DNA from: Blautia sp. Marseille-P3087
Lineage (GTDB): Bacteria; Bacillota; Clostridia; Lachnospirales; Lachnospiraceae
DNA length: 64,000 nt
NCBI RefSeq assembly: GCF_900120195.1
Contig: NZ_LT635539.1
Location: 2,513,441-2,577,440 of the forward strand
Reading direction: 5' to 3'
Below the pieces are notes generated by a model. The model was given only the letters and a program-made list of their open reading frames with translations. It made no database searches and had not been told where the DNA came from. The position numbers and the translations under genes were made by a program. Positions 5,446-38,322 of this stretch are shown piece after piece; position 1 is the stretch's first letter, and every line of letters starts with the position of its first letter.

Positions 5446-6864
5446 ATGATGAGAAGAACGATTAGCGGCATGATTGGAGCTGGATCGCTGGCTCATAACA
5501 GACGGGATTTTGTAGCTGAAAATGTAGACCCAGACAGAGTACACCTGAATATCTGTTACCAGAATGAAAATCTGAAAGAAGTATATAAAGAGTTGTTTGA
5601 TGATTCTGTGGAACGGTACAATGTGGGAAAAAGAAAGGACCGGCAGATTACAAATTACTATGAAAAAATTCGTCAGGGAAAGCAGGAAAAGCTGTTCCAT
5701 GAAGTGATTTTCCAGATTGGAAATCGAGAAGATATGGCTGTGGGAACGACAGAAGGAGACCTGGCGGTAAAAGTACTGGATGAGTATGTAAAGAATTTTC
5801 AGCAACGAAATCCAACACTTCATGTATTTAGCTGTTATCTGCACCAGGATGAAGCTACACCGCATCTGCATATTGATTTTGTTCCTTATGTAACTGGCTG
5901 GAAAGGGAAAGGAATGGATACCAGGGTTTCACTGAAGCAGGCATTAAAAAGCCTGGGATTTCAAGGCGGGAACAAACACGATACAGAGTTGAATCAGTGG
6001 ATCAACCATGAAAAAGAAGTGCTTGCAGAGGTTGCACGACAGCATGGAATTGAATGGGAGCAGAAAGGGACACATGAGGAGCATCTTGATGTTTATAATT
6101 TTAAGAAGAAAGAGCGTAAAAAGGAAGTACAGACACTGGAACAGGAAAAAGAATATCTCACTGCTGAGAATGAAGGACTGATTGCACAGATTGCGGAAGT
6201 AAGAGCTGATATCCAGCTTTTAAAAGATGATGAGGAGCAGGCAGTTAAATATAAAGAGGAGGCTGAGAAGCGTGCGGAAAAAGCTGAGAAAGATCTGCAC
6301 AGCCTGGAAGAACGCAGAGAACGGTTGCAGCCTGTTATGGATAATGTCAGTAAGGAAATAAAGGAATATGGGACAGTGAAAGCAATTCTACCGGAAGCTG
6401 GGACATTAGAACGTGCAACAACTTACCGGGATAAAAAGATAAAACCACTGTTTACCCAGATGAAAAATAAAATTGCTGCAATGGCAGCCCAGGTCAAAGA
6501 ACTTACCAAAGAAGTAGAAAAATGGAAACACAAATATCAGGAAACAAAGCAGGCATATAACCGAGTGCAGAGACAGCTAGATACAGTATGTGAAGAAAAA
6601 CAGCAGTTATCTGAGGAAAAGCAACAATTGCAGGGTGTTTCCGACAGATATGAGCGGGTAGTGCGTGTTCTTGGAGAAAATATTGTAGAAAATGCAGTAC
6701 AACAGGATATACAGGAGCAGAAAGCATTAGAAGAAAAACGGCAAATGGAGCAAATGCCCAAAGGAAGTATTCACGAAAGATTGGCTTGGGGTGCCCGTAA
6801 AAGTGAAATGGAGAATCAACAGCGTAAGAAAAATAAAACAAAAAATAGAGGAATGGAGAGATAA
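5446..6864 (+). CDS. Mob/Pre-type relaxase (plasmid recombination/mobilization protein)
   Basis: About 473 residues from ATG 5446 (a second ATG follows at once), preceded by GAGGTGAGGAGC. The N-terminal 200 residues are the relaxase domain, with the metal-binding HQDEATPHLHIDFVPY motif near residue 145. The C-terminal half (about 225-440) is a long coiled coil rich in Glu, Lys and Gln, as usual in MobV/Pre proteins. It nicks oriT and pilots the strand during mobilization by a co-resident conjugation system. The start was chosen because the upstream extension overlaps the oriT region. The protein looks intact. Confidence 0.9.
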   Translation: MMRRTISGMIGAGSLAHNRRDFVAENVDPDRVHLNICYQNENLKEVYKELFDDSVERYNVGKRKDRQITNYYEKIRQGKQEKLFHEVIFQIGNREDMAVGTTEGDLAVKVLDEYVKNFQQRNPTLHVFSCYLHQDEATPHLHIDFVPYVTGWKGKGMDTRVSLKQALKSLGFQGGNKHDTELNQWINHEKEVLAEVARQHGIEWEQKGTHEEHLDVYNFKKKERKKEVQTLEQEKEYLTAENEGLIAQIAEVRADIQLLKDDEEQAVKYKEEAEKRAEKAEKDLHSLEERRERLQPVMDNVSKEIKEYGTVKAILPEAGTLERATTYRDKKIKPLFTQMKNKIAAMAAQVKELTKEVEKWKHKYQETKQAYNRVQRQLDTVCEEKQQLSEEKQQLQGVSDRYERVVRVLGENIVENAVQQDIQEQKALEEKRQMEQMPKGSIHERLAWGARKSEMENQQRKKNKTKNRGMER

Positions 6865-6868
6865 GACG

Positions 6869-7243
6869 ATGAAAAAACACATTTATGATGAAAGCAATGG
6901 ATTAAGCTACACATTGCATGGAGATTATTATCTGCCGGATTTGGCAATGAATGAGGAAGAACCGACATATGGTAAATACGGAATGTTGCGAAAACAGTTT
7001 CTGAAAATGCATAGACCGGCACGATATCAGTATTTATTGATGACGGGGGAACTAACAGCACATTTGAACCGAGTCGATCAGGAGACCAGAGAGCAGGTGG
7101 AAACCTTGGTAAAGCAGATGGTGGGAAAACAGGGTGTAAACGAAAAATTAAAGAGGCAGGATCAGATGAGGTGGGTTAGATTGATGAATAATATCAAAGT
7201 TAGTGCAGAAGAAATTGTACTGAAAGAGATAATATATGTTTAA
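6869..7243 (+). CDS. TnpV-like transposon-encoded protein
   Basis: A 124-residue protein starting at ATG 6869, four bases after the relaxase. The pattern GDYYLPDL, then GKYGMLRKQFLKMHRPARYQ, LLMTGELTAHL and a C-terminal helix is that of TnpV proteins found in Tn4451-like and related elements of Clostridia. The biochemical role of TnpV is not established. The tight spacing implies co-transcription with the relaxase. The element backbone ends here and cargo follows. Confidence 0.82.
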   Translation: MKKHIYDESNGLSYTLHGDYYLPDLAMNEEEPTYGKYGMLRKQFLKMHRPARYQYLLMTGELTAHLNRVDQETREQVETLVKQMVGKQGVNEKLKRQDQMRWVRLMNNIKVSAEEIVLKEIIYV

Positions 7244-7248
7244 AACCA

Positions 7249-7280
7249 TTATGGCTGTATCAAAAAAGATGCAGCCATAA
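7249..7280. terminator. Bidirectional terminator between tnpV and vsr
   Basis: TTATGGCTG (7249-7257) pairs perfectly with CAGCCATAA (7272-7280), with T-rich sequence on both sides. It lies between convergent genes and separates mobilization genes from the defence cargo. Confidence 0.7.
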
Positions 7281-7288
7281 ATTTTATA

Positions 7289-7741
7289 CTATTCGTCAGA
7301 GGAATCGAAAGAAGAATCTGAAAAGGTGCTGTCCCATATAGCTTCTTCAATAGCTTGAATACATTCGTCGGTATGTTTTTTGATATCTTGACCCCAGAAA
7401 TGTATAACTGTATAACCCAGAAACAAGAGCTTTTTATCAGTTTCAAAATCACGGGAACGATTACGTTCAATTTTTTTAATCCAGTAATCTGGATTTTTAC
7501 CTTTTTCAAGACGGAGTTTTAAGATTTCCCAGTCCTTTCCATGAAAAAATTCACTGTCGCAAAAAATAGCAATTTTGTATTTGGTCAGAACAATATCAGG
7601 AGAGCCGGGCAAGGCTTTATAATTTTTTCGATATCGGTATCCTTTGTGCCATAGAGCTTTTCTGAGTTGAAGTTCTATGGATGTGTCTTTGCTATGAATG
7701 CTACGCATATTTTTAGAGACAGTTTCAGAATCACGAGACAT
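7289..7741 (-). CDS. vsr: Very short patch repair endonuclease (Vsr)
   Basis: The 150-residue protein matches Vsr: MRSIHSKDTSIELQLRKALW at the N-terminus, YRKNYKALPGSPDIVLTKYK with the catalytic Asp, and the zinc/active-site region FCDSEFFHGKDW, then NPDYWIKKIERNRSRDFETD. Vsr nicks beside T:G mismatches created by deamination of 5-methylcytosine. It is divergent from the cytosine-5 methyltransferase two genes away, the usual partnership. The usual His in FVHGCFWH is changed (IFCDSEFFHGK), a variation worth noting, but the protein is full length. Confidence 0.92.
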   Translation of the reverse strand: MSRDSETVSKNMRSIHSKDTSIELQLRKALWHKGYRYRKNYKALPGSPDIVLTKYKIAIFCDSEFFHGKDWEILKLRLEKGKNPDYWIKKIERNRSRDFETDKKLLFLGYTVIHFWGQDIKKHTDECIQAIEEAIWDSTFSDSSFDSSDE

Positions 7742-7833
7742 AAACGGGTCACCACCTTTGGGAATATTAATTATTCTAACAAGTTAAAGGAAAAGATACA
7801 AGTACCATTGGCTGTTGGACATGAATTATTTAA

Positions 7834-7862
7834 TTGACGGTATAAAGGCTATGATTTATACT
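7834..7862 (+). promoter_or_regulatory. Promoter of the restriction-modification operon with operator
   Basis: TTGACG (7834-7839), 17 bp, TATACT (7857-7862). A dyad GTATAA (7840-7845) / TTATAC (7856-7861) fills the spacer, the position expected for the operator of the small HTH control protein encoded next. Confidence 0.7.
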
Positions 7863-7900
7863 TGTAAAGTAAGAGTTGATTAAATGACGAGGTACCCGAA

Positions 7901-8110
7901 ATGACGATTTCTGAACAAATCAAGGTACTGTGTGTGCGGTCAGATATTAGCGTAGCTGAGCTTGCACGGCGAATAGGGACAACACCACAGAATTTTAATG
8001 GAAAAATGAAAAGGGAGAGTTTTACCATAGCTGAATTAGAAGATATAGCAGGTGCGGTAAACAGTTCTTTTGAAAGAAAATTCGTATTAAAAAACGGAGA
8101 GAAAGTTTAA
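7901..8110 (+). CDS. Small HTH regulator, likely R-M control protein
   Basis: A 69-residue protein that is almost only an XRE-type helix-turn-helix (TISEQIKVLCVRSDISVAEL, ARRIGTTPQNFNGKMKRESF). Its stop overlaps the methyltransferase start by one base. Small HTH proteins in this position act as C proteins that delay endonuclease expression while the host becomes methylated. A dyad inside the promoter spacer upstream fits autoregulation. The HTH is clear; the control role is inferred. Confidence 0.8.
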   Translation: MTISEQIKVLCVRSDISVAELARRIGTTPQNFNGKMKRESFTIAELEDIAGAVNSSFERKFVLKNGEKV

Positions 8111-9318
8111 TGCATAAAAATATAAAACAAAATAATTATAGTAGATATGCTGCCAATAGAGATGTTATTTCTTTATTTTCTGGAGCAATGGGATTAGACA
8201 TTGGATTGGGAAAAGCAGGTTTAAATGTGGCAATTGGACAGGATTTTGATGCAGCCTGTGTAAAAACTATGCAGGCCAATGGCCATAGAGTATTGGGCGG
8301 AGATATTAGGGAAATACAGCCCCAGCAATTATTAGATATGACAGGCTTATCTGTAGGAGAGCCATTTTTGATTTGCGGAGGACCGCCGTGCCAGCCTTTT
8401 TCTACAGCAGGAAAAAGATTGGGTATAAATGATCCGAGAGGCAGTTTGTTTATGGATTTCATTCGTATGATTGATTATATACGGCCTCGCTTTTTCGTGA
8501 TGGAAAATGTAAAAGGAATTATGTCGTCGCCATTGAAACATGTGCCTTTGTCTGAAAGAGATGAAAGCGATCCTGATCAGAAATTAGGAACAGTGCTTGA
8601 TGTGATTTTAGCAGAATTTGATAAACTGGGATATAAAACTGTATATGGCGTACTTGATGCTGTAAATTATGGCGTTCCACAATTCAGAGAGAGGTTTGTG
8701 TTAATTGGTAGTCGGGATAATGAAGATATTTTCTTACCAATTCCTACACATTTTCAGATGCATCAAAGCAAGGAGTATCAGTGGCAGACAGTTAGAAGTG
8801 TGATTGAAGATTTGGAATCTGACCATGGAGAATGTGCAACGTTAAGTGAAGAAAGATTGAAATTCTTGAAAATGGTTCCGGAAGGTGGGAATTGGAGAGA
8901 TTTACCAGAGAATATTATTCCTATTGCTATGGGAGGTGCATATAAATCCGGAGGTGGAAAAGTTGGATTTTATAGAAGGTTATCATATGATCAGCCTTCA
9001 CCAACTGTAGTTACTTCTCCAGTACAGAAAGCAACAATGATGTGTCATCCTACACAAGATAGACCATTAAGCGTAAAAGAATATGCAAGAATTCAGCAAT
9101 TTCCGGATGATTGGGTATTTACTGGAACGACAGCAGCAAAATATCGACAGATAGGGAATGCTGTTCCGGTGGGATTAGCAGAAGCTATTGGAAAGGCTGT
9201 GCTTTCTGTGGCTAATAAGACAGCTTTAGTTCAGACAAAACGTTTTAGAGGTACAAATGTACATAATAAGATTAGAAATGCAATAGAATTGGGAGGAAAT
9301 TTATATGCCGTTAAATAA
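8110..9318 (+). CDS. DNA (cytosine-5) methyltransferase
   Basis: A 402-residue C5 methyltransferase with its motifs in canonical order: I DVISLFSGAMGLDIG (about 18-32), IV GGPPCQPFSTAGKR with the catalytic Cys (about 97), VI FVMENVKG (about 130), VIII QFRERFVLIGSR (about 195), a target-recognition region (about 210-295), IX PTVVTSPVQKA (about 300) and X RQIGNAVPVGLA (about 350). It transfers a methyl group from SAM to cytosine within the R-M site. It overlaps the control gene by one base and the next gene by 14, indicating one operon. The recognition sequence cannot be deduced. Confidence 0.97.
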   Translation: MHKNIKQNNYSRYAANRDVISLFSGAMGLDIGLGKAGLNVAIGQDFDAACVKTMQANGHRVLGGDIREIQPQQLLDMTGLSVGEPFLICGGPPCQPFSTAGKRLGINDPRGSLFMDFIRMIDYIRPRFFVMENVKGIMSSPLKHVPLSERDESDPDQKLGTVLDVILAEFDKLGYKTVYGVLDAVNYGVPQFRERFVLIGSRDNEDIFLPIPTHFQMHQSKEYQWQTVRSVIEDLESDHGECATLSEERLKFLKMVPEGGNWRDLPENIIPIAMGGAYKSGGGKVGFYRRLSYDQPSPTVVTSPVQKATMMCHPTQDRPLSVKEYARIQQFPDDWVFTGTTAAKYRQIGNAVPVGLAEAIGKAVLSVANKTALVQTKRFRGTNVHNKIRNAIELGGNLYAVK

Positions 9319-10045
9319 TGCATATGATGAACAGGCTGTAATCCAGGCGATTGCTTCTGCCTTAGAAACATTTTATGGAACACTAATTGAGAAGATAGAT
9401 GGATTAAACATACAGAAGGTAATGAAACGTAAAAATCCGTATTTATACCGTGCAAAGGCTATGCAGAGTGCAACTGAAATTGTAGATTCGGTTCTTACTG
9501 CATTTGTAAGTTCCAGTGAAGAAACTATTTTTGGTAATTGCTTTTTTGAACCGATTGCTATTGCTGCAAGTGGTGGAAATAAAGCCCTGGCAGAAGGTAT
9601 TGATATTATGATCCAGAACAATGAAACAAATACAATTTCTGCAATAGCTGTTAAAAGTGGGCCGTCCGTATTTAATGCAGACAGTAAGAAACGACAGGAA
9701 CAGAATTTTACAGCTGCTTCTAAGTTGGCACAGCAAGCAAAGGCAAGGTATGAAGCGTATATCGGTTATTGTTATGGGAAAAAGAAAGAATCTGGTAGAG
9801 GAAAGCCCAAAATGTATCAGGAATTGGCTGGAAAACGATTCTGGGCAGAATTAACAGGAGACGAGGACTTTTACATAAAGATTATCGGATACATGGGAAC
9901 TATGCCGGAGAAATATGTGGCTGATTATAAAGAAAGTTATAACAGAGCAGCTAATAGACTTGTTAGGGAGTTTTCTAATAGTTTCTGCAGAGAAGATGGA
10001 AGTATTGACTGGGAAAAGCTGGTAGAATTTAATTCGGGAGATTGA
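9305..10045 (+). CDS. Type II restriction endonuclease, PmeII-like
   Basis: A 246-residue protein overlapping the methyltransferase end by 14 bp. The patterns KNPYLYRAKAMQSATEIVDS, FVSSSEETIFGNCF and AEGIDIMIQN...AIAVKSGPSVFNAD match PmeII-type restriction endonucleases; D in EGIDI and the VKSG lysine fit a PD-(D/E)xK core. It should cleave unmethylated sites protected by the upstream enzyme. Placement after a C protein and methyltransferase, with Vsr divergent, is the textbook layout of a type II 5mC R-M system. The family is recognised by reading only. Confidence 0.78.
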   Translation: MPLNNAYDEQAVIQAIASALETFYGTLIEKIDGLNIQKVMKRKNPYLYRAKAMQSATEIVDSVLTAFVSSSEETIFGNCFFEPIAIAASGGNKALAEGIDIMIQNNETNTISAIAVKSGPSVFNADSKKRQEQNFTAASKLAQQAKARYEAYIGYCYGKKKESGRGKPKMYQELAGKRFWAELTGDEDFYIKIIGYMGTMPEKYVADYKESYNRAANRLVREFSNSFCREDGSIDWEKLVEFNSGD

Positions 10046-28643: not shown

Positions 28644-28778
28644 ATGACAAAAGATGAATGGTATGCCCAGCTCTTTGAAAGACTTAACAATTTCAGATTT
28701 CGGAGCAGTTTTCATTTGAAGCAGAAAGATATTGATTATATAAATGAAAAGGGGAACATAAGTGAAAGAGAACTATAA
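28644..28778 (+). pseudogene. N-terminal fragment of a DUF4186 protein
   Basis: ATG 28644 opens 44 codons beginning MTKDEWYAQLFERL and containing FRFRSSFHLKQKDIDYINEK, the start of DUF4186 proteins, which are normally over 100 residues. It stops at 28778 inside the next gene's start region. The rest of the domain is absent, so it is a truncated remnant whose 3' part was replaced by the downstream gene. Confidence 0.6.
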
Positions 28779-30102
28779 ACACCGGGCAGGAATTTACAGA
28801 GGCATCTTGTTTTTGATGTTGGCAATGTTTGCGGTCGCAAGCGTATCTTCTGCGGCAACGAAAGTTCAGGTACAGGCCGCATCAAAGAAGAACACGAACA
28901 GTAATCAAAAAACCAGCAGAAAAATTATCAAACTTATGGATAAATCCGGAAACTACCTGATTTATACAGGATATAACTGGTGGCTGAAAGACAAAAACGG
29001 AAAGAAATTAACCGGTATGCGATGCATCAGAGTGCCGGCAGGGCAGAAACTGAGATCCGGCTATTATATGTTTGACGGCAGGGGCTGTTTATGTAAGAGG
29101 AGAAGATTCTACAGAGTCAATACCGTGATTGGTAGCAAGAGATTTAAAGGAACTTATTATTTTGGTGGAGATTATGGAAGCTTATACAGGAGAGCCGGAT
29201 GGAAGACTATAAATGGATATACCTATCTCCTTGGCTTTGAGGGGAAACGATATGAAAACCGCTGGAAATATGGATACTATTTCAATGCAAATGGAAAAAT
29301 CGTAAAAAACCGAAAAATATCAGAAGGTGTTTATGTTGATTGTGATGGGCGCAGATGTACGGAAGCAGAGATGGAGATCAGCAGTCTGAAGAAAAAACTG
29401 CGGACGATGTTGAACAGTTATTATGGTTCATGGTCAGTTTATGTGAAAGATTTAAAGACTGGCGGGGTGGTCAATCTGAATGAAAGTGCCATGTACTCTG
29501 CGAGTATAATCAAACCTTTTGTAATGGCATCGACTTTTGATCAGATTCAAAAGGGAAACTTGTCATACAGTTCCACGATAAAAGGACTTCTTCGCGAGAT
29601 GATCACAGTAAGCGACAACGAAGCATACAATCAGCTGGTAAAATACAACAGTACATCCAGAAGTTTTTTGAGTGGGGCATCTGTTGTTAATAGATATCTT
29701 GAGAAAAATAAATACACAAAAACCGGCTGCCATCATACATTACATCCGGCATCTTCGGCATCAGTCGGCGATGGACGGAGCAATATCACCTCGGCAAAAG
29801 ACTGTGGCATTCTTCTGGAACATATTTACAATGGAACCTGTGTATCTTCAAGATATTCAAAAGAAATGCGAAACCTTTTACTTGCCCAGACAAGAAGATG
29901 GAAGATACCGTCAGGTATTCCATCCGGAGTCAGAGTTGCAAACAAAACAGGCGAGACATCCAGTGTTGAGCATGATATGGCGATTGTCTACGGAAAGAAA
30001 AAAGATTACATAATCTGTGTATTTTCAAATACAGGCAGTGAGGATTACGCACTTCCGCGTATTCGGGAGATTTCAAGAACTGTATATAATTATCTGAACT
30101 GA
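28762..30102 (+). CDS. Secreted serine hydrolase, class A beta-lactamase-like
   Basis: 446 residues from GTG 28762 (AAAAGGGGAAC upstream). A signal peptide (about 1-38: GILFLMLAMFAVASVSSAAT) is followed by cell-wall-binding-like aromatic repeats (about 65-190: NYLIYTGYNWWLKDKNGKKL, KYGYYFNANGKIVKNRKISE). The C-terminal 230 residues are a penicillin-recognising fold: SxxK in YSASIIKPF (about 247), SDN in TVSDNEAYNQL (about 280), KTG in ANKTGETSSV (about 395). The conserved class A Glu166 region is not evident, so hydrolysis of peptidoglycan-like or other substrates is as likely as beta-lactam resistance. It acts outside the cell. Confidence 0.88.
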   Translation: MKENYKHRAGIYRGILFLMLAMFAVASVSSAATKVQVQAASKKNTNSNQKTSRKIIKLMDKSGNYLIYTGYNWWLKDKNGKKLTGMRCIRVPAGQKLRSGYYMFDGRGCLCKRRRFYRVNTVIGSKRFKGTYYFGGDYGSLYRRAGWKTINGYTYLLGFEGKRYENRWKYGYYFNANGKIVKNRKISEGVYVDCDGRRCTEAEMEISSLKKKLRTMLNSYYGSWSVYVKDLKTGGVVNLNESAMYSASIIKPFVMASTFDQIQKGNLSYSSTIKGLLREMITVSDNEAYNQLVKYNSTSRSFLSGASVVNRYLEKNKYTKTGCHHTLHPASSASVGDGRSNITSAKDCGILLEHIYNGTCVSSRYSKEMRNLLLAQTRRWKIPSGIPSGVRVANKTGETSSVEHDMAIVYGKKKDYIICVFSNTGSEDYALPRIREISRTVYNYLN

Positions 30103-30170: not shown

Positions 30171-31661
30171 TTATATAGAATTTTTTATCTGGTTACATAC
30201 CTGTGTGTACACATGGTATCTGTCTCTGCCATTATGTTTTGCTTCATACAAGGCCGTATCGGCATTTTTGTAAAGATCCATATAGCAGCTGCCGGCTTCG
30301 GGAGCGAATGCAATGCCCACACTGATCGTAACATACTTTCCGTTCATTTCCTCGAAGGGAAGATTACGGACATTTTCAATCAGTTTGTTGATGCGCGCAG
30401 AGGCGATTTCCTTTGATTCTGTATTTCGCATGTAAATGACAAATTCATCACCGCCGATTCTTCCGATAATATCATCTTTCCGGAAATGACGGAAAAATGT
30501 TTTGCTGAGCTCATGGAGAACCTTATCACCGACAGCATGACCGTACTGGTCATTCACTTCTTTGAATTTATCTATATCGAGAATGACAAAAGTGCCTTTT
30601 TCATTGGGCATCTGTGTCAGGATCCTGTTGATATATTCTTCCGTAGCGCGTTTGTTGTAAGCACCGGTCAGTCCGTCAAGCTGTGCAGTTCTGAGAAGTA
30701 TTTCGTTTTGTTTGCGATTGGTTCGGATAACATAAAAAACAAGAAGGAGAACCAGAATCAGGAATACACCAAGAAGTATACTTTCATCAGTTTTGATAAA
30801 CTCATAAGATCCCTGTGCATTTGCAACAGGAATTACATAGCAGATCATCCAGTCGTTCATTCCGAGTCGGGTATAGGAGAGATACTGTGCGGTAGCAGAG
30901 TCGGAAGCTGTACGCACCTTTACGGTTCCGCCAGTTCCATTTTGAAAGTCCTGACGGACATTTTGCAAAGTAGCATTGGATAATAAGTTTTTGCGTTCAT
31001 AAAACTTGAAGAAATTATCCCCATATGTAATTTTGTGGTAAGCCGGATCACCGTCATAAGCAATGATCTCCCCCAGCTGGTTAACGATCAGGCTGTATCC
31101 GGAATTATCAAATACATCATTAAAAAGCATGCGGCTTAGAGCGGTTACATTATAGGAACCACCAAGTACAGCGATGACATTACCATTCTGATAAACGGGG
31201 ACGCCAAGGATTACGCGGGTTTCTTTATCTATACTGCTTTCAAGTGGATCACTTAAGGTTTCGTTTCCCTGTATAGCTTCCTGAAAATAGTACCGCTGTG
31301 AAACATTTTTTTCGGCTCCGTTATCATAATGAGCGGTGCCGTCCGTTTCAATCAGTGCTGTTCGTTCAAAGTCTGTATTTTCTGCCATGGAAACGAGCAG
31401 TTCCATATTTTCATCGGACAGAAGCGCGGAAGATTGCCCCATCTTATCTGCGATACTGTTCAGAAATCCATAATGAATCTGAAGAATGGAAAGAATATGG
31501 TCACTTTGCCTTGAAACAGTATCGGTCATGATATTTTGCGAGTTGGTGTCGACAGAACTCTGTATATTGATCAGAAAAATACTGAGGCTTACTGCCAATG
31601 CGCAGATAAACATCAAGATTGCGGATATGTAATTAACAGCATGATCTAGTTTCTTTTTCAT
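30171..31661 (-). CDS. Membrane sensor diguanylate cyclase (GGDEF)
   Basis: 496 residues from ATG 31661 (GGAGG 7 bp upstream on the minus strand; the longer frame is untranslated leader). Topology: one N-terminal TM (about 12-35), an extracellular Cache-like sensor (about 40-280, with VSQRYYFQEAIQGNETLSDP), a second TM (about 295-315) and a GGDEF domain (about 335-490; LDGLTGAYNKRA, IGRIGGDEFVIYMRN). The intact GGDEF implies cyclic-di-GMP synthesis. A minus-strand promoter lies upstream (TATACT as AGTATA 31700-31705, TTGCAT as ATGCAA 31723-31728). Confidence 0.95.
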   Translation of the reverse strand: MKKKLDHAVNYISAILMFICALAVSLSIFLINIQSSVDTNSQNIMTDTVSRQSDHILSILQIHYGFLNSIADKMGQSSALLSDENMELLVSMAENTDFERTALIETDGTAHYDNGAEKNVSQRYYFQEAIQGNETLSDPLESSIDKETRVILGVPVYQNGNVIAVLGGSYNVTALSRMLFNDVFDNSGYSLIVNQLGEIIAYDGDPAYHKITYGDNFFKFYERKNLLSNATLQNVRQDFQNGTGGTVKVRTASDSATAQYLSYTRLGMNDWMICYVIPVANAQGSYEFIKTDESILLGVFLILVLLLVFYVIRTNRKQNEILLRTAQLDGLTGAYNKRATEEYINRILTQMPNEKGTFVILDIDKFKEVNDQYGHAVGDKVLHELSKTFFRHFRKDDIIGRIGGDEFVIYMRNTESKEIASARINKLIENVRNLPFEEMNGKYVTISVGIAFAPEAGSCYMDLYKNADTALYEAKHNGRDRYHVYTQVCNQIKNSI

Positions 31662-31699
31662 ATGCATTCCTCCGTTTCCTGTGGGCTTAGGATAATTAC

Positions 31700-31728
31700 A
31701 GTATAAATGATTCTTATGTGTAATGCAA
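31700..31728 (-). promoter_or_regulatory. Promoter of the GGDEF gene
   Basis: Minus strand TTGCAT (31728-31723), 17 bp, TATACT (31705-31700). Confidence 0.6.
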
Positions 31729-31786
31729 AAAGAATTACCGAATCTGTCCCTGACAGACATTATGTGCAAAAAGTGCATAAAAACTC

Positions 31787-31815
31787 TTGACGTGAAGAAA
31801 AATGAGAGGTAAAAT
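31787..31815 (+). promoter_or_regulatory. Promoter of the T-box leader
   Basis: TTGACG (31787-31792), 17 bp, TAAAAT (31810-31815). The transcript would start near 31822 and run through the T-box leader into the TRAP genes. Confidence 0.7.
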
Positions 31816-31849
31816 AAAGTCACCTTTTAGCAAGGTAAAGCATAAGAGT

Positions 31850-32117
31850 AAATTCTATGAAGGGAATCAGTAGAAGCAGAGGAAACTGTCTACAGAGAGC
31901 TGTGTATGGTGGGAAGCAGCGACAGAACTGTTTTGAATATCATCCCTGAGAAGGAAGACCGAACGTTTTGCAGAACCGCCAGTAGGTTTTCACGGTAGCT
32001 CCCCGTTACAGGAGACGCGTATGCCGGTACGTTGCAGAATCGTACTTGTTTCAATGGAGAAACAGGGTGGTTGCGGAATGATATATCTATCCGTCCCTGA
32101 TGGGGCGGATTTTTTTA
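31850..32117 (+). ncRNA. T-box riboswitch upstream of the TRAP transporter
   Basis: A Stem I-like region contains AGAGAGCTG...GGTGGGAAGCAGC (31906-31931) and GAATATCATCCCTGAG, where the codon AUC (31939-31941) has the usual spacing to GAG. The T-box consensus appears as AACAGGGTGGTTGCGG (32061-32076), and a terminator ATCCGTCCC/GGGGCGGAT with seven Ts ends at 32117. The UGGU bulge would pair with a tRNA ending ACCA. T-box RNAs read through when a cognate tRNA is uncharged. The specifier suggests isoleucine (UAU, tyrosine, is an alternative). Transporter genes follow, so uptake should rise on amino-acid starvation. Confidence 0.88.
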
Positions 32118-32182: not shown

Positions 32183-32683
32183 ATGAAAGTTTACAAAAAA
32201 CTCATGAATGCACTTGCAGCAGTCGAAAAAGTCGTACTGATTGTATCTACGTTGCTGATCCTGGTGCTGACAGTGGGAAATGTATTTTCCCGTAAAGTGA
32301 TCCATCGCTCATGGTCATTCACAGAAGAACTGGTTGTAGCGGTATTTGTTCTCATCACACTTCTGGCAGCAGCACTTGCATGTCGTAAAGGTGAACTGGT
32401 CAGTCTGTCATTGTTTACTGACCGTCTCCCGGAAAAACTGAAAAAACCGTCTGTGATCCTGATCACGGTTCTGAGCATTGTTTTTTCAGCAATTCTTTTT
32501 AAATATGGTATGGATAAGGTTATGACCCAGCTTGCAAACGGTAAGAGAACCTTCGTGCTGAACTGGCCGGAATGGATTTTCTGGTCCTTCGTACCGATCG
32601 GTGCAGGATGCATGATTCTTCATTTTATCGAGTTCTGCCTGGATTTCTGCACAGGATATAAAGAAGAAAAGGAGGACAAATAA
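32183..32683 (+). CDS. TRAP transporter small permease subunit (DctQ)
   Basis: 166 residues from ATG 32183 (GGGGAAGAGAGT upstream); a longer frame reaching back into the T-box antiterminator is not credible. Four hydrophobic segments (about 15-37, 48-68, 87-108, 125-150) and the WSFTEELVVAVFVLITLLAA region match DctQ proteins. The C-terminus is charged (GYKEEKEDK). DctQ supports the large permease DctM in the membrane. The next gene starts at the adjacent base after its stop. Expression is under the T-box leader. Confidence 0.93.
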   Translation: MKVYKKLMNALAAVEKVVLIVSTLLILVLTVGNVFSRKVIHRSWSFTEELVVAVFVLITLLAAALACRKGELVSLSLFTDRLPEKLKKPSVILITVLSIVFSAILFKYGMDKVMTQLANGKRTFVLNWPEWIFWSFVPIGAGCMILHFIEFCLDFCTGYKEEKEDK

Positions 32684-35600
32684 ATGATCAGTGCTGTTTT
32701 ATTTATTTCATTCTTCATTTTTCTGATCCTTGGTGTGCCGATCGCAATCTGCCTGGGACTTTCCTCAGTATGTGCAATCATTTACTCCGGAACTTCACTT
32801 ACGATCGTGGCAACCAACATGTATGCCGGAATCAGTAAATTCCTGCTTCTGGCAATTCCGTTTTTCGTATTATCCGGTAACATCATGGCAAAAGCCGGTA
32901 TCTCCAAACGACTGATCGACTTCGTTGATACCTGCGTCGGCCACAAAAAAGGTGGTATCGCCATCGTATGTGTTATCGTTGCATGTTTCTTCGGAGCAAT
33001 CTCCGGTTCCGGACCGGCAACTGTAGCTGCCCTTGGTGCAGTTCTGATTCCGGCAATGGTAGAGCAGGGAGGATTTTCCGCACCGTTTTCCACGGCATTG
33101 ATGGCGACATCGAGTTCGATTGCGATCGTCATACCTCCTAGTATTGCATTCGTTGTATATGCATCCATCACAGGTGTTTCTATCGCTGATATGTTCACAG
33201 CAGGTATCGTACCTGGTATTCTGATGGGTGTTGCGCTTGTAATTGTTGTTATGCTGGAAGCAAAGAAACACAACATTCAGCCTTCCAGAAAAAAAGCAAC
33301 TGCAAAAGAACGCTGGGCTACATTTAAAGATGCATTCTGGGGATTTTTGATGCCGATCATCATCCTCGGTGGAATCTATGGCGGTATCTTTACACCAACA
33401 GAAGCAGCAGCCGTATCGGTTGTATATGGTCTGTTTGTAGGTATGGTCATCTATCGTGAAGTCAAATTCCGTGATCTGATCGATATTTTTGTAGAATCAG
33501 CAAAAACAACAGGCGGTATCATGCTGATCGTTGCATGCGCATCCCTGTTCTCTTATGTATGTACGAAATTTGGTATCGCAGACGCTGCATCCGGACTGCT
33601 TGCATCTATTGCACACAATCAGTTCGTATTCCTTCTGATCGTAAATATCATTTTCCTGATAGCAGGATGTTTCATCGATGCAAACTCAGCTATGTATATC
33701 TTTATCCCGATCATGCTTCCTGTATGCAAGGCACTTGGATATGACGTTGTTGCATTTGGTGTTATGGCAACTGTCAACCTTGCAATCGGTCAGGTAACAC
33801 CGCCGGTTGGTGTCAATCTGTTCGTTGCAATCAGTATCAAGATCAAAAAAGGTCTGGAGGTTACTCTTCAGCAGATTTCAAAGGCAGTTATGCCGATGAT
33901 CGCTGCTTCTGTAGTAGTACTTCTTGTAATTACATATATTCCAGCCGTTTCTACAGCTCTGCCGAAAGCTCTTGCAAAGAACGGCGCTTATACAGGAGAT
34001 CAGTCCTCCTCTGACACAGGAAGCACCGCTTCCAAAGATGCCGGAAACGACAATGATTCCTTCAATACTATCGCGGATTACAGTGATCTTGACTGGCCGG
34101 AGATGACATGGAACTTTGCATGCTCCACAACAGAGACGAGTACATGGGCTGATGGTGGACGTAAGTTCGGTGAACTGATGGAAAAAGCAACTGGCGGAAA
34201 GATCAAAGTCAATGTATATGCAGCAGACCAGCTTACCAACGGAAATCAGTCCGAAGGTATTCAGGCGCTGATGAATGGAGACCCGGTACAGATCTCCATG
34301 CATTCCAATCTGATCTATTCAGCATTTGACCCGAGATTCAATGTTGTATCCCTGCCGTTCATCTATGATTCTTATGATGATGCAGATGCAAAATTTGACG
34401 GCGCAGCCGGAGAGAAACTGAAAGAGATTCTTTCTGAGTATGGCCTGCACTGTATGGGTATCGCGGAAAATGGTTTCCGTGAGCTGACTAACAGCAGGCA
34501 TGAAGTAAAAACTGTCGATGACATGAAAAACTTAAAGATCCGTGTAGCAGGATCAAACCTTCTTATGGAATGCTATAAGAGATGGGGCGCAGATGCGACC
34601 AATATGAACTGGTCCGAAACCTACACCGCACTGCAGCAGAACACAGTAGAAGGCCAGGAAAACCCGTTGCCGGCAATTGATGCAGCAAGTGTACAGGAAG
34701 TTCAGCCATACTGCTCTATGTGGGATGCAATTTATGACTGTCTGTTCTTCTGTATCAATCAGGATATCTATGACAGTCTGACCGCAGAGCAGCAGGCAGT
34801 TGTTGATGAGTGTGGACAGAAAGCAGTAGAGTATGAGCGTTACATCAACCGTTCCGGTGACGAAGAGATCATGAGCCGCTGGGAAGAAAGCAATGGCGTA
34901 ACTTTCACACAGAAAGAAGATATGGATATTGATTCCTTCAAAGAAGCTGTTGATGGTGTAGACGATTGGTTTGTTCAGGAACTGGAGAGTCAGGGCTATG
35001 ATGATGCACAGGATCTGGTAGATCTTTTCACAGAAGATTCCATGGATACCGTAGATGATTACAGTGACCTTGACTGGCCGGAAGCAACATGGAACTTTGC
35101 ATGCTCCACAACGGAGACAAGTACATGGGCAGAAGGCGGACGTAAGTTCGGTGAACTTATGGAAAAAGCAACCGGCGGAAAGATCAAAGTCAATGTATAC
35201 GCAGCAGACCAGCTTACCAACGGAAACCAGTCCGAAGGTATTCAGGCGCTGATGAATGGAGACCCGGTACAGATTTCTATGCATTCCAACCTGATCTACT
35301 CTGCATTTGACCCGAGATTCAATGTTGTATCTCTGCCGTTCATCTATGATTCCTACGATGATGCAGATGCGAAGTTTGACGGTGAGGCAGGAGAAAAACT
35401 GAAAGAGATTCTTTCAAGCTACGGCCTGCACTGCATGGGTATCGCGGAAAATGGTTTCCGTGAGCTGACCAACAGCAAACATGAAGTAAAAACCGTCGAT
35501 GACATAAAAAACCTGAAAATCCGTGTAGCAGGATCCAACCTTCTTATGGAATGCTACAAGAGATGGGGCGCAGATGCAACCAACATGAACTGGTCCGAGA

Positions 35601-36019
35601 CCTACACTGCACTGCAGCAGAACACAGTAGAAGGTCAGGAGAACCCGTTACCGGCAATCGATGCAGCGAGTGTGCAGGAAGTTCAGCCGTACTGCTCCAT
35701 GTGGGATGCAATCTATGATTGTCTGTTCTTCTGCATCAACCAGGATCTTTATGATACTCTGACACCGGAGCAGCAGGCAGTTGTTGATGAGTGTGGACAG
35801 AAAGCTGTAGAGTATGAGCGTTACATCAACCGTTCCGGTGACGAGGAGATCATGAGCCGCTGGGAATCTAAGAATGGTGTGACATTTACAGATAAAGATG
35901 ACATGGATATCGATTCCTTTAAGGAAGCAGTAGATGGTGTAGATGAGTGGTTTGTAGAACAGCTTAAAGATGCCGGATACAAAGATGGACAGGAACTTGT
36001 AGACCTATTCGAAAAATAA
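32684..36019 (+). CDS. TRAP large permease (DctM) fused to two tandem DctP-type binding domains
   Basis: 1111 residues in one open frame. Residues 1-433 are DctM with about 12 membrane segments (FLILGVPIAICLGLSSVCAI, AISGSGPATVAALGAVLIPA, GQVTPPVGVNLFVA). A Ser/Asp/Gly linker (about 440-464) like a lipoprotein N-terminus leads to a DctP solute-binding domain (465-791) and a second, highly similar copy (792-1111). Both keep the ligand-binding Arg region KIRVAGSNLLME. DctP is normally a separate protein. Synonymous sites differ between copies while protein sequence is kept. The fusion would tether both receptors outside the cell. Substrate unknown; T-box control points to an amino acid or relative. 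Confidence 0.93.
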   Translation: MISAVLFISFFIFLILGVPIAICLGLSSVCAIIYSGTSLTIVATNMYAGISKFLLLAIPFFVLSGNIMAKAGISKRLIDFVDTCVGHKKGGIAIVCVIVACFFGAISGSGPATVAALGAVLIPAMVEQGGFSAPFSTALMATSSSIAIVIPPSIAFVVYASITGVSIADMFTAGIVPGILMGVALVIVVMLEAKKHNIQPSRKKATAKERWATFKDAFWGFLMPIIILGGIYGGIFTPTEAAAVSVVYGLFVGMVIYREVKFRDLIDIFVESAKTTGGIMLIVACASLFSYVCTKFGIADAASGLLASIAHNQFVFLLIVNIIFLIAGCFIDANSAMYIFIPIMLPVCKALGYDVVAFGVMATVNLAIGQVTPPVGVNLFVAISIKIKKGLEVTLQQISKAVMPMIAASVVVLLVITYIPAVSTALPKALAKNGAYTGDQSSSDTGSTASKDAGNDNDSFNTIADYSDLDWPEMTWNFACSTTETSTWADGGRKFGELMEKATGGKIKVNVYAADQLTNGNQSEGIQALMNGDPVQISMHSNLIYSAFDPRFNVVSLPFIYDSYDDADAKFDGAAGEKLKEILSEYGLHCMGIAENGFRELTNSRHEVKTVDDMKNLKIRVAGSNLLMECYKRWGADATNMNWSETYTALQQNTVEGQENPLPAIDAASVQEVQPYCSMWDAIYDCLFFCINQDIYDSLTAEQQAVVDECGQKAVEYERYINRSGDEEIMSRWEESNGVTFTQKEDMDIDSFKEAVDGVDDWFVQELESQGYDDAQDLVDLFTEDSMDTVDDYSDLDWPEATWNFACSTTETSTWAEGGRKFGELMEKATGGKIKVNVYAADQLTNGNQSEGIQALMNGDPVQISMHSNLIYSAFDPRFNVVSLPFIYDSYDDADAKFDGEAGEKLKEILSSYGLHCMGIAENGFRELTNSKHEVKTVDDIKNLKIRVAGSNLLMECYKRWGADATNMNWSETYTALQQNTVEGQENPLPAIDAASVQEVQPYCSMWDAIYDCLFFCINQDLYDTLTPEQQAVVDECGQKAVEYERYINRSGDEEIMSRWESKNGVTFTDKDDMDIDSFKEAVDGVDEWFVEQLKDAGYKDGQELVDLFEK
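34076..36016 (+). repeat. Tandem duplication of a ~0.98-kb solute-binding domain
   Basis: Codons from 34076 (DYSDLDWPEMTW) and from 35057 (DYSDLDWPEATW) begin two in-frame copies of 327 and 320 codons. Differences are mostly synonymous; scattered conservative amino-acid changes occur (DGG/EGG, SEYG/SSYG, SRHE/SKHE). Confidence 0.95.
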
Positions 36020-36036
36020 AAAGTTTTAAGTCAGAG

Positions 36037-36072
36037 AAATCCCTGAATTCCGTTGGAGTTCAGGGATTTTTC
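36037..36072 (+). terminator. Terminator after the TRAP operon
   Basis: AAATCCCTGAA (36037-36047) pairs with TTCAGGGATTT (36059-36069), followed by TTC. Confidence 0.85.
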
Positions 36073-36078
36073 TGCTTG

Positions 36079-36155: not shown

Positions 36156-37220
36156 ATGAATCCAATCTTGCAAAAGGATATGGAGGACATTTTTTCGCGC
36201 AATAACAGCTGGGAACGACTGGAGAAAAGTACAGTACTTCTGACGGGTGCATATGGGATGCTGGCATCTTATATTGTTCATTTTCTGCTGTATGTCAGAA
36301 CGGTCAAAAATATCAATGTAAAACTGATTGCGGTAGTTCGAAACAAGGACAAATTTGTGCAGAGATTTGGGAATATAGAGGGATTTGACAGTATAGAGAT
36401 CATTCAGAATGACCTGTCAGAACCGATAGAGATAGATGAAGATGTGGACTATATCATTCATGCTGCATCGCTGGCGAGTCCACAGTATTACAGCGTGTGT
36501 CCGGTGGATGTATTGAAACCGAATACGATTGGAAATTATCATCTGCTTGAACTTGCAACAACAAAAAAAGTAAAGAGCTATCTGCTGTTCAGTTCATGTG
36601 ACGTTTATGGGACACCGAAAGTCGACGGCCTGATTAATGAGACTGCGTTTGGGCATATGGATACACTTGACATACATAACTGTTACAGCGAAAGCAAACG
36701 TATGGCAGAAACCATGTGCCGTGCATTCTGGGTACAGCATCAGGTTCCGGTCAGGATTGCACGGATCGCACATACGTATGCACCGACGATGGATATACAG
36801 AATGACCCTCGGGTATTTGCTTCCTTTGTAAAAAATATTGTTGCAGGTGAAGATATTGTATTGAAAAGTGACGGCTCCGGTAAGCGTACGTTCTGTTATA
36901 TTACAGATGCAGTTGCCGGCTATTTTAAGATCCTGTTTGATGGTGCGGAGGGCGAGGCATACAACGTTTGCAATACTTCACAGTTTGTAAGCATTCGTGA
37001 GCTTGCAGAATGTCTGACGGAGATTTATCCGGAAAAAAATCTTCATGTAATCTGCAAACAGCGCAGTGAATCTGAAAATTATACAGAAAATAAGGCACTG
37101 GTTGGCCATGAGAGGATCCCTGATAATCACAAGCTGCAGGCACTGGGCTGGGAGGCCAGAGTGGATATCAGAGAGGGATTTGGCAGAGTGGTGCAGTATA
37201 TTGAAAATGAAAACAGGTGA
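36156..37220 (+). CDS. NAD-dependent epimerase/dehydratase (sugar nucleotide enzyme)
   Basis: 354 residues of the extended SDR family. The Rossmann motif is VLLTGAYGMLASYIVHF (about 27-43), in place of GxxGxxG; the catalytic YxxxK is CYSESKRMAE (about 178) with SSCDVYG upstream. It most resembles UDP-glucuronate decarboxylase/epimerase relatives. It is the first gene of the operon, followed within 46 bp by rfbG. In the yersiniose pathway a similar SDR (YerF) reduces the branched sugar after the TPP enzyme, so a final reductase is a plausible role here; a different epimerase cannot be excluded. Confidence 0.85.
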   Translation: MNPILQKDMEDIFSRNNSWERLEKSTVLLTGAYGMLASYIVHFLLYVRTVKNINVKLIAVVRNKDKFVQRFGNIEGFDSIEIIQNDLSEPIEIDEDVDYIIHAASLASPQYYSVCPVDVLKPNTIGNYHLLELATTKKVKSYLLFSSCDVYGTPKVDGLINETAFGHMDTLDIHNCYSESKRMAETMCRAFWVQHQVPVRIARIAHTYAPTMDIQNDPRVFASFVKNIVAGEDIVLKSDGSGKRTFCYITDAVAGYFKILFDGAEGEAYNVCNTSQFVSIRELAECLTEIYPEKNLHVICKQRSESENYTENKALVGHERIPDNHKLQALGWEARVDIREGFGRVVQYIENENR

Positions 37221-37266
37221 GGCTTCAATACTCACAGAATTTATTTACAGGAGCGACAATATAAAA

Positions 37267-38322
37267 ATGAATAACTTCGATTTCAATTTTTATAAAGGAA
37301 AAAAAGTTTTAGTTACAGGTCATACCGGATTTAAAGGGGCATGGCTCTGCAGACTTCTGCTCGGACTTGGGGCGGAGGTGACGGGATATGCACTGAAACC
37401 GCCGACAGATCCGGAGCTTTTCGGGCTGCTTGATCTCGAAAAAAATATGCATTCTGTAATTGGAGACATCCGGGATCTTTCTAAATTAACGGGAGTCCTG
37501 AAGGAGGCACAGCCGGAAATTGTTCTTCATCTTGCAGCACAGCCGATTGTCCGTGAATCCTATGCGAACCCGGTCTACACTTATGAAACGAATGTAATGG
37601 GTACAGTCAATATACTTGAGGCAGTAAGAAGTGCAGGAAGTGCAGCTTCTTTTCTGAATGTTACTACAGATAAAGTATACAAAAATAATGAGTGGGAATG
37701 GGGATACCGCGAGACGGATGAACTGGATGGCTATGATCCGTATTCCAACAGTAAATCCTGCTCAGAACTGGTTACACACAGTTACGAAAAGGCTTTCCTT
37801 AAAGATGCAGGTATTGCAGTATCTACTGCACGTGCCGGAAATGTAATTGGCGGAGGCGACTTTGCAGCAGATCGTATCATTCCGGATTGTGTCAGAGCTA
37901 TGGCGTCCGGAAGGGAAATTGCCGTGCGTAATCCGCATTCAACCAGACCATATCAGCATGTACTGGAACCGCTGGGGGTATATCTGATGATTGCCGGTGT
38001 GCAATATCAGGACAGATCAAAAGCCGGTTCCTATAACGTAGGACCGGGAGATGAAGACTGCATTACTACCGGAGAGCTTGCAGATCTTTTCTGTGAGGCA
38101 TGGGGAGGAAAGGCAGCATGGAAAAATCTGTTTCAGGGAGGTCCTCATGAGGCAAATTTCCTCAAACTGGACTGCTCCAGAATCCGCAGTACTTTTGGCT
38201 GGAGACCACACTGGCATGTAAAAGATGCCGTACGATATACAGTACAGTGGTATCAGGCATGGCTTGACGGAGAAAATATGGCAGAATATACAGACCGTCA
38301 GATAAAAGAATATTTTAGATAA
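37267..38322 (+). CDS. rfbG: CDP-glucose 4,6-dehydratase
   Basis: 351 residues from ATG 37267. The extended SDR features of RfbG are clear: KKVLVTGHTGFKGAWLCRLL (NAD binding), VLHLAAQPIVRESYANPVYT, NVTTDKVYKNNEWEWGYRET, the catalytic YSNSKSCSELV, and STRPYQHVLEPLGVYL near the C-terminus. It converts CDP-D-glucose to CDP-4-keto-6-deoxyglucose, the entry step to 3,6-dideoxyhexoses. The next enzyme, RfbH, is two genes downstream. The cytidylyltransferase RfbF that makes CDP-glucose is not in the window. Confidence 0.96.
   Translation: MNNFDFNFYKGKKVLVTGHTGFKGAWLCRLLLGLGAEVTGYALKPPTDPELFGLLDLEKNMHSVIGDIRDLSKLTGVLKEAQPEIVLHLAAQPIVRESYANPVYTYETNVMGTVNILEAVRSAGSAASFLNVTTDKVYKNNEWEWGYRETDELDGYDPYSNSKSCSELVTHSYEKAFLKDAGIAVSTARAGNVIGGGDFAADRIIPDCVRAMASGREIAVRNPHSTRPYQHVLEPLGVYLMIAGVQYQDRSKAGSYNVGPGDEDCITTGELADLFCEAWGGKAAWKNLFQGGPHEANFLKLDCSRIRSTFGWRPHWHVKDAVRYTVQWYQAWLDGENMAEYTDRQIKEYFR

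Follow-up and report, generated by a model that had tools for sequence, protein, structure and literature searches.

A TRAP-type transporter with two tandem receptors fused to its permease and an isoleucine-type T-box leader in Blautia

Introduction

In tripartite ATP-independent periplasmic (TRAP) transporters of the classical DctPQM type, a receptor (DctP, PF03480), a small membrane subunit (DctQ, PF04290) and a permease (DctM, PF06808) are encoded as three adjacent components, and the receptor carries a conserved arginine. A natural fusion of DctM to a single receptor, from Acidaminococcus intestini (G4Q5D7), is mentioned as rare in the portion of the source available to us (PMC9352664), and fusions of the receptor to DctQ are called rarer still in the accessible portion of another (PMC8276074). 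Here we describe a locus in a 64,000-nucleotide stretch of the genome of Blautia sp. Marseille-P3087 (the window; contig NZ_LT635539.1, positions 2,513,441 to 2,577,440 of the forward strand). All three TRAP components are present and mutually adjacent, as in classical systems, but DctM and two copies of the receptor form one protein, DctM-P-P, and the operon is preceded by a predicted T-box leader. The A. intestini protein, which we liken to it by description only, likewise has receptor and DctM in one chain with the receptor after DctM; it is described there with one receptor, whereas the window protein has two and its relatives have one to four. In the Q-P fusions the receptor is also joined to a membrane subunit, but to Q rather than to M.

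Receptors tethered to a permease also occur in ATP-binding cassette (ABC) importers of Gram-positive bacteria. According to the excerpts at hand, GlnPQ has fused substrate-binding domains, two in tandem in GlnP with linkers of 19 and 14 residues (PMC8025302), and OpuA has a fused substrate-binding domain (PMC11065425). Their likeness to the window protein is one of tethering only, as their translocators are ATP-driven and unrelated. The two domains of GlnPQ differ in ligand, whereas the receptors of the window protein are nearly identical, and the linkers of the latter are predicted to be longer, at about 43 and 17 residues. Within Lachnospiraceae, the bacterial family of the window, TAXI-GltS fusions have been explained by tethering in the part of the paper that we could consult (PMC12344293). 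These too join a receptor to a secondary transporter, but a single, N-terminal TAXI receptor to a GltS translocator, in place of the DctP and DctM domains found here.

Transporters under amino-acid-specific T-boxes form the remaining point of comparison. The families named in the accessible part of one survey are ABC, APC, DAACS, LIVCS, MFS, NHAC and NSS, and TRAP is not among them there (PMC2494555). Fusion of the receptor, its two copies and T-box control are what set the window locus apart from classical DctPQM. Our searches of the open-licence literature turned up no account of a DctM that carries receptors in tandem, although one may exist in print elsewhere, and no paper combining a T-box, a TRAP transporter and isoleucine. 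The preliminary description of this locus had known of no TRAP system of its layout; the published single M-P fusion narrows that statement, which holds, in the literature that we covered, for the tandem array. Within that literature, a TRAP variant with tandem receptors and an isoleucine-type T-box appears to be new.

Results

A permease and two receptors in one chain

The open reading frame (ORF) at 32684-36019 on the forward strand of the window is one intact frame of 1111 amino acids, with an ATG start and zero internal stops. In Pfam, DctM (PF06808) spans residues 7-421 of its product (E 3.4e-112) and DctP (PF03480) matches it in two stretches (E 7.8e-137); with TIGR00786 the DctM part scores 418.7 bits against a cut-off of 268.45. 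The permease domain (aa 1-430, 32684-33973) is followed by a linker rich in Ser, Asp, Ala, Asn, Gly and Thr (aa 431-464, 33974-34075), by a first receptor unit, P1, whose final residues form the P1-P2 linker (aa 465-791, 34076-35056), and by a second, P2, assigned from the second PF03480 stretch and its identity to P1 (aa 792-1111, 35057-36016), all on the forward strand. The claim of the preliminary description that DctM and two highly similar DctP receptors share one protein is therefore borne out in both respects: P1 and P2 are identical at 296 of 320 aligned residues and at 845 of 960 bases. Their 115 base differences are split 15/11/89 over codon positions 1/2/3, and a repeat finder gives a spacing of 981 nt, in agreement with the unit starts at aa 465 and 792. 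The operon content is two genes only, dctQ and the fused dctM-P-P, with no ABC subunit.

Modelled alone with AlphaFold2, the P1 unit reached a mean predicted local distance difference test score (pLDDT) of 94.1, and all of the best 50 Foldseek matches to this model were TRAP receptors, with template-modelling (TM) scores of 0.77-0.86 on query length. Sequence identity to the solved receptors with the closest folds is 21-30%, and by their titles these receptors include binders of sugar acids, sialic acid and isethionate. Arg 156 of P1 is invariant across 36 aligned receptors, P2 included, and aligns with an arginine in five solved receptors; we take it to be the equivalent of Arg-147 of SiaP. 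The latter is given as the conserved carboxylate-binding arginine of TRAP receptors in the accessible part of PMC4646407.

Past residue 430 of the fused protein we found no lipobox and no further transmembrane segment, which agrees with the earlier proposal that the last DctM helix takes over the anchoring of the receptors; the closest unfused relative has a receptor with a lipoprotein-type signal. The N-terminus of DctM is reported to be periplasmic (PMC5812351) and the M domain to comprise transmembrane helices 2-11 plus two hairpins (PMC9352664), in the portions of these papers available to us. With the N-terminus on that side and the helices even in number, the C-terminus of DctM is expected on the outside of the cell. 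A weak model of the full-length protein was used solely for the low-confidence part of the linker, predicted to be disordered at aa 441-457 (pLDDT below 50), and for linker lengths, which are about 43 residues from the last DctM helix to P1 and about 17 from P1 to P2.

Recurrence of the fusion in Lachnospiraceae

The source genome is assembled in two contigs and is 99.98% complete. In a sample of 64 genomes from the genus, the DctM-DctP fusion occurs as a single frame in 15, counting one with a broken second receptor (G004; numbers with G and L are our handles for genomes and loci). Two further genomes have fusions cut by contig ends, one close relative has separate genes, and two additional matches are distant. 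In a sample of 397 genomes of the family, searched at E 1e-105, a fused frame with verified domains is present in 16, one of which is the source genome. The frame is also open in the single-contig relatives G001, G067 and G086. With an uninterrupted frame in these and other close relatives, a stop missed at the joints is excluded as the explanation, and the search for the same architecture that the preliminary description had called for shows that it recurs within Lachnospiraceae.

We counted receptors in the best 78 named loci of 230 confirmed relatives. Forty are fused: 14 with a single receptor, 20 with two, three with three and one with four, and two more are cut by contig ends. These records include Blautia luti, B. 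glucerasea, Fusicatenibacter saccharivorans, Hespellia stercorisuis, Clostridium fessum, Oliverpabstia intestinalis, [Clostridium] aminophilum and one Treponema metagenome-assembled genome (MAG). The array of four is found in a Robinsoniella MAG (L073, 1306-6705), where DctM and its receptors occupy a single frame of 1799 aa.

In a sample of 398 genomes of the phylum (E 1e-105, at most two candidates scored per genome) no fusion was found beyond that of the source genome; one genome, G516, has a 771-aa frame containing an internal stop. Across 391 genomes of the class, among the matches listed, only the window's own DctP matches lie in a frame longer than 506 aa, and 0 of 357 matching plasmid records cover 80% of the query. 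Several candidates proved to be something else on inspection. The family scan gave divergent matches resembling fusions (34-37% identity, open frames of 777-805 aa, internal stops), and the three that were opened, L166, L168 and L169, consist of separate DctM and DctP ORFs. Long open frames had also suggested fusions in G035 and G006, whose genes are separate, and G899, G1159, G1044 and G594, opened on the same grounds, contain none.

Two records call for separate mention. The Treponema MAG, from horse faeces (L086), is the only one named as a non-Firmicute among the 40 fused loci, and reflects either transfer or a binning error. In Blautia massiliensis GD8 (L076) a frameshift within the second receptor splits the fused gene into 6001-8904 and 8877-9335, by either real loss or sequencing error; this locus is tallied among the 20 with two receptors, and its near relatives are intact.

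An isoleucine-type T-box ahead of the operon

The T-box leader (RF00230) lies at 31848-32101 on the forward strand and scores 95.2 bits, where the gathering score is 93. It reads GAA-U-AUC-A, the specifier columns of the model alignment giving AUC, an isoleucine codon, and its predicted terminator, a hairpin with a T run, lies at 32089-32110 on the same strand. GAA precedes the specifier with or without one spacer base, depending on the leader. Because this spacing varies, we checked the codon from the 3' side, where it ends six bases before the conserved GAG. By this rule the leaders of leuA, a TrpX-like receptor, tyrS, pheS, proS, ileS and thrS read CUC, UGG, UAC, UUC, CCG, AUC and ACC, and the window leader reads AUC, matching the ileS leader of the source genome in both codon and position. 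That genome has ten T-box matches, seven over the cut-off; eight were read, the window included, and those ahead of trpE-like and metG-like genes were left out. All seven other codons fit their downstream gene, the gene names being our own assignments from the sequences. The Trp-type T-box (UGG) of this set, at C2:499335-499582 (L172), stands upstream of the receptor that presumably resembles TrpX, and is another instance of a T-box-controlled transporter part.

Of 60 upstream regions, counting that of the window, 30 contain AUC at this six-base distance from GAG, and it is the only codon in any recognised leader. Rfam at the gathering score confirmed the T-box in 4 of 9, 3 of 9 and 5 of 12 loci submitted. 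Among the confirmed loci are the unfused relatives L108, L113 and L115, so that T-box control probably predates the fusion. Two apparent specifiers, GTT in L073 and AGG in L103, were rejected, both having been taken from other GGGTGG motifs; the L073 leader reads AUC, and L103 was counted as lacking a T-box. In one relative (L148, 836-948) a Clostridiales-1 RNA (RF01699) lies immediately 3' of the T-box.

Selection and evolutionary history

Ratios of nonsynonymous to synonymous divergence (dN/dS) were obtained for seven genomes, covering 11 of the 21 possible species pairs. Between P1 and P2 of one genome the ratio is 0.04-0.10 in all seven. Between species it is, where computable, 0.03-0.07 for DctM, 0.02-0.07 for P1 and 0.03-0.10 for P2 (computable in 9 of the 11 comparisons). 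Judged by these ratios, both receptor copies are under purifying selection; dN is higher in P2 than in P1 in all 11 comparisons, which are not independent of one another. The synonymous distance between copies of one genome (0.57-0.88 in the seven genomes) is smaller than that between orthologous receptors of different species (1.00-2.45; 19 of 22 comparisons computable, three not), and the copies therefore appear to have been homogenised or re-duplicated as well. The original argument that synonymous divergence shows both copies to be kept is thus sound as regards retention, to which the purifying selection attests, but incomplete as history.

In the outgroup the gene order is P-Q-M, with a separate receptor upstream, and in nearer relatives it is Q-M-P, with a separate receptor downstream (nine rows with identical DctM were dropped from this comparison). 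The closest unfused relative by domain scores, L092, has its receptor gene 49 nt downstream, with a lipoprotein-type signal (LTAC) followed by a small-residue-rich tail; in other unfused receptors, such as L103 and L115, the signal is present and the lipobox absent. The window protein has lost signal and lipobox alike. The joint of the fused loci L102 and L104, which sit near [Clostridium] aminophilum on the DctM tree, carries a tail that resembles the start of the mature, unfused receptor of L103. On that tree (71 of 88 rows; 17 outgroup or partial rows left out), at least three changes are required to explain the fused versus separate state, and at least 11 to explain how many receptors are fused; because its deep forks are modestly supported we claim no number of fusion events. 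Some of the single-copy counts could represent assembly collapse.

In a receptor tree built by a quick method from 85 of 119 rows, copies of the same genome often cluster (L086, L087, L106, L083, L148), and near species pair P1 with P1 and P2 with P2 (L070/L096, L065/L038). The single receptor of L084 can be compared with both copies of its near twin, L144. Its first 20 codons show one difference to P1 against eight to P2, its last block shows 0 differences to P2 against 38 to P1, gaps counted, and its middle is mixed. Such a mosaic would be the expected trace of recombination between repeats, a process that can raise or lower copy number and homogenise copies.

Discussion

What is read from this locus is an isoleucine T-box with its terminator, dctQ, the fused dctM-P-P gene, a terminator-like hairpin and a TRAP-type arginine in both receptors, and the predicted architecture is real, recurrent and selected. 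We think it likely that the whole constitutes a TRAP importer for isoleucine or an isoleucine-related acid, induced by isoleucine shortage, with its receptors tethered in tandem. In such a system, the T-box would read uncharged tRNA-Ile, and under isoleucine shortage antitermination in the leader would allow DctQ and DctM-P-P to be produced. The receptors would lie outside the cell on the flexible linker that follows the last DctM helix, separated from each other by the shorter one, and each would bind isoleucine or a related carboxylate, e.g. a branched 2-oxo acid, and then close. By analogy with known TRAP systems, P1 and P2 would dock alternately on the QM part, and the elevator would carry the substrate inward, driven by an ion gradient. 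We suggest that the tether substitutes for a periplasm or for lipid anchoring, that having two equal receptors increases their local number and allows one to reload during docking of the other, and that the number of receptors, from one to four, was varied in evolution through recombination between the repeats. On the combined proposition, that of an array of one to four near-identical receptors whose number is tuned by repeat recombination under isoleucine-starvation control, our judgement is evenly balanced.

The T-box, which the preliminary description overlooked, is the best pointer to function and supplies a specific substrate hypothesis where receptor similarity is too weak to do so. Of 52 close relatives, 23 (21 by a first clustering) have an exporter of the LysE family (PF01810) in the flanking sequence retrieved, against 1 of 26 more distant TRAP loci; Pfam was positive for all four of the LysE-type ORFs submitted to it, and such neighbours fit an amino-acid-type substrate. 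Several observations weigh on the other side. A search for the LysE exporter in the source genome was negative, and this genome encodes ketol-acid reductoisomerase, so that it probably makes branched-chain amino acids and an importer would supplement synthesis. The specificity of a T-box reveals the sensed tRNA rather than the cargo, and T-box-controlled branched-chain carriers are expected to be multi-specific in the accessible part of the survey cited above (PMC2494555). In 30 of the 60 upstream regions, three of them with short upstream sequence, the T-box pattern was not recognised, and a search of four pattern-negative regions at E 0.01 found no T-box. The 60 regions are mutually related, some almost identical, and with such shared ancestry the AUC codons in 30 of them cannot be counted as that many separate events. 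Finally, the model of the full-length protein is of low quality (pLDDT 73.8, predicted TM-score 0.43) and uninformative on docking. An isoleucine-related substrate is, in our assessment, a strong hypothesis and not a result.

The fusion could be as described and the substrate unrelated to isoleucine, the T-box marking amino-acid starvation and the cargo being a C4/C5 dicarboxylate or a sugar acid. We regard this as unlikely, although it draws on the low identity to the fold-nearest solved receptors, with sugar-acid, sialic-acid and isethionate binders among them, and on the half of the upstream regions in which no T-box was recognised; isoleucine is nonetheless the only codon in the 30 recognised leaders, in fused and unfused relatives alike, and the exporter neighbours of the close relatives also speak against it. 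It is more doubtful that the second receptor is a functionless tandem duplication adrift by redundancy. The higher dN of P2 in the non-independent species comparisons, the frameshift in P2 of B. massiliensis GD8 and the labile copy number are all in line with drift, but the dN/dS of P2 is set against this by its low range beside those of P1 and DctM, as is the presence of two copies in 20 of the 40 named fused loci.

A polyprotein is also conceivable, in which signal peptidase would cleave past the last DctM helix (ALPKALA-K) and free a soluble tandem receptor, and an A-x-A-like motif does follow this helix in several Blautia relatives. The motif is not conserved in other fused relatives (PAALGS in L078, PNMLGG in L148, LLFIND in L102), a cell that lacks an outer membrane would presumably not retain a freed receptor, and the unfused L092 receptor appears to be lipid-anchored, all of which makes such processing very improbable. 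Nothing was found in favour of an assembly artefact or missed stop beyond the general point that short-read assemblies could miscount near-identical tandem copies, perhaps in some single-copy relatives. Since numerous independent assemblies, of which three are single-contig, contain the identical frame, and since the copies differ at 115 of 960 bases, we consider this explanation negligible.

The preferred reading, of a tethered importer for isoleucine or a related acid, has implications for how TRAP systems can be studied. TRAP importers have usually been examined as separate parts, so that the number of receptors per translocator is free to vary. In the fused proteins it is fixed by species at one, two, three or four per chain, which provides a natural series for considering the limits set by receptor number and the taking of turns. 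If the reading is correct, the locus would provide the first example both of a TRAP system for isoleucine or its precursor and of one known to be under a T-box, in gut-dwelling members of the Lachnospiraceae such as Blautia, Fusicatenibacter and Hespellia.

Other features of the locus

A promoter-like site, TTGACG-17-TAAAAT, lies directly 5' of the leader at 31787-31815 on the forward strand and matches the consensus at 10 of 12 positions; since such matches number six in the real sequence and 9.0 on average in shuffles, the site is supported by its position alone. The separate dctQ gene (32183-32683, forward strand; 166 aa; PF04290, E 4.1e-32) was given a start picked by eye, the ATG after AGGGGAAGAG. 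Its TAA stop is immediately followed by the start codon (ATG) of the fused gene, and an AGGAGG at 32670-32675, within the 3' end of dctQ, lies ahead of that gene. Downstream of the operon, at 36032-36074 on the forward strand, is a hairpin resembling an intrinsic terminator, with a 20-pair stem and a loop of three, whose T run sits in the 3' arm of the stem.

Divergent from the operon, a gene at 30171-31823 on the reverse strand encodes a diguanylate cyclase with dCache and GGDEF domains. Further upstream, 28762-30102 on the forward strand encodes a Beta-lactamase2-family protein with a weak match to choline-binding repeats. Downstream, genes for sugar-nucleotide epimerases/dehydratases occupy 36156-38322 on the forward strand and may mark the beginning of a cluster for surface polysaccharide.

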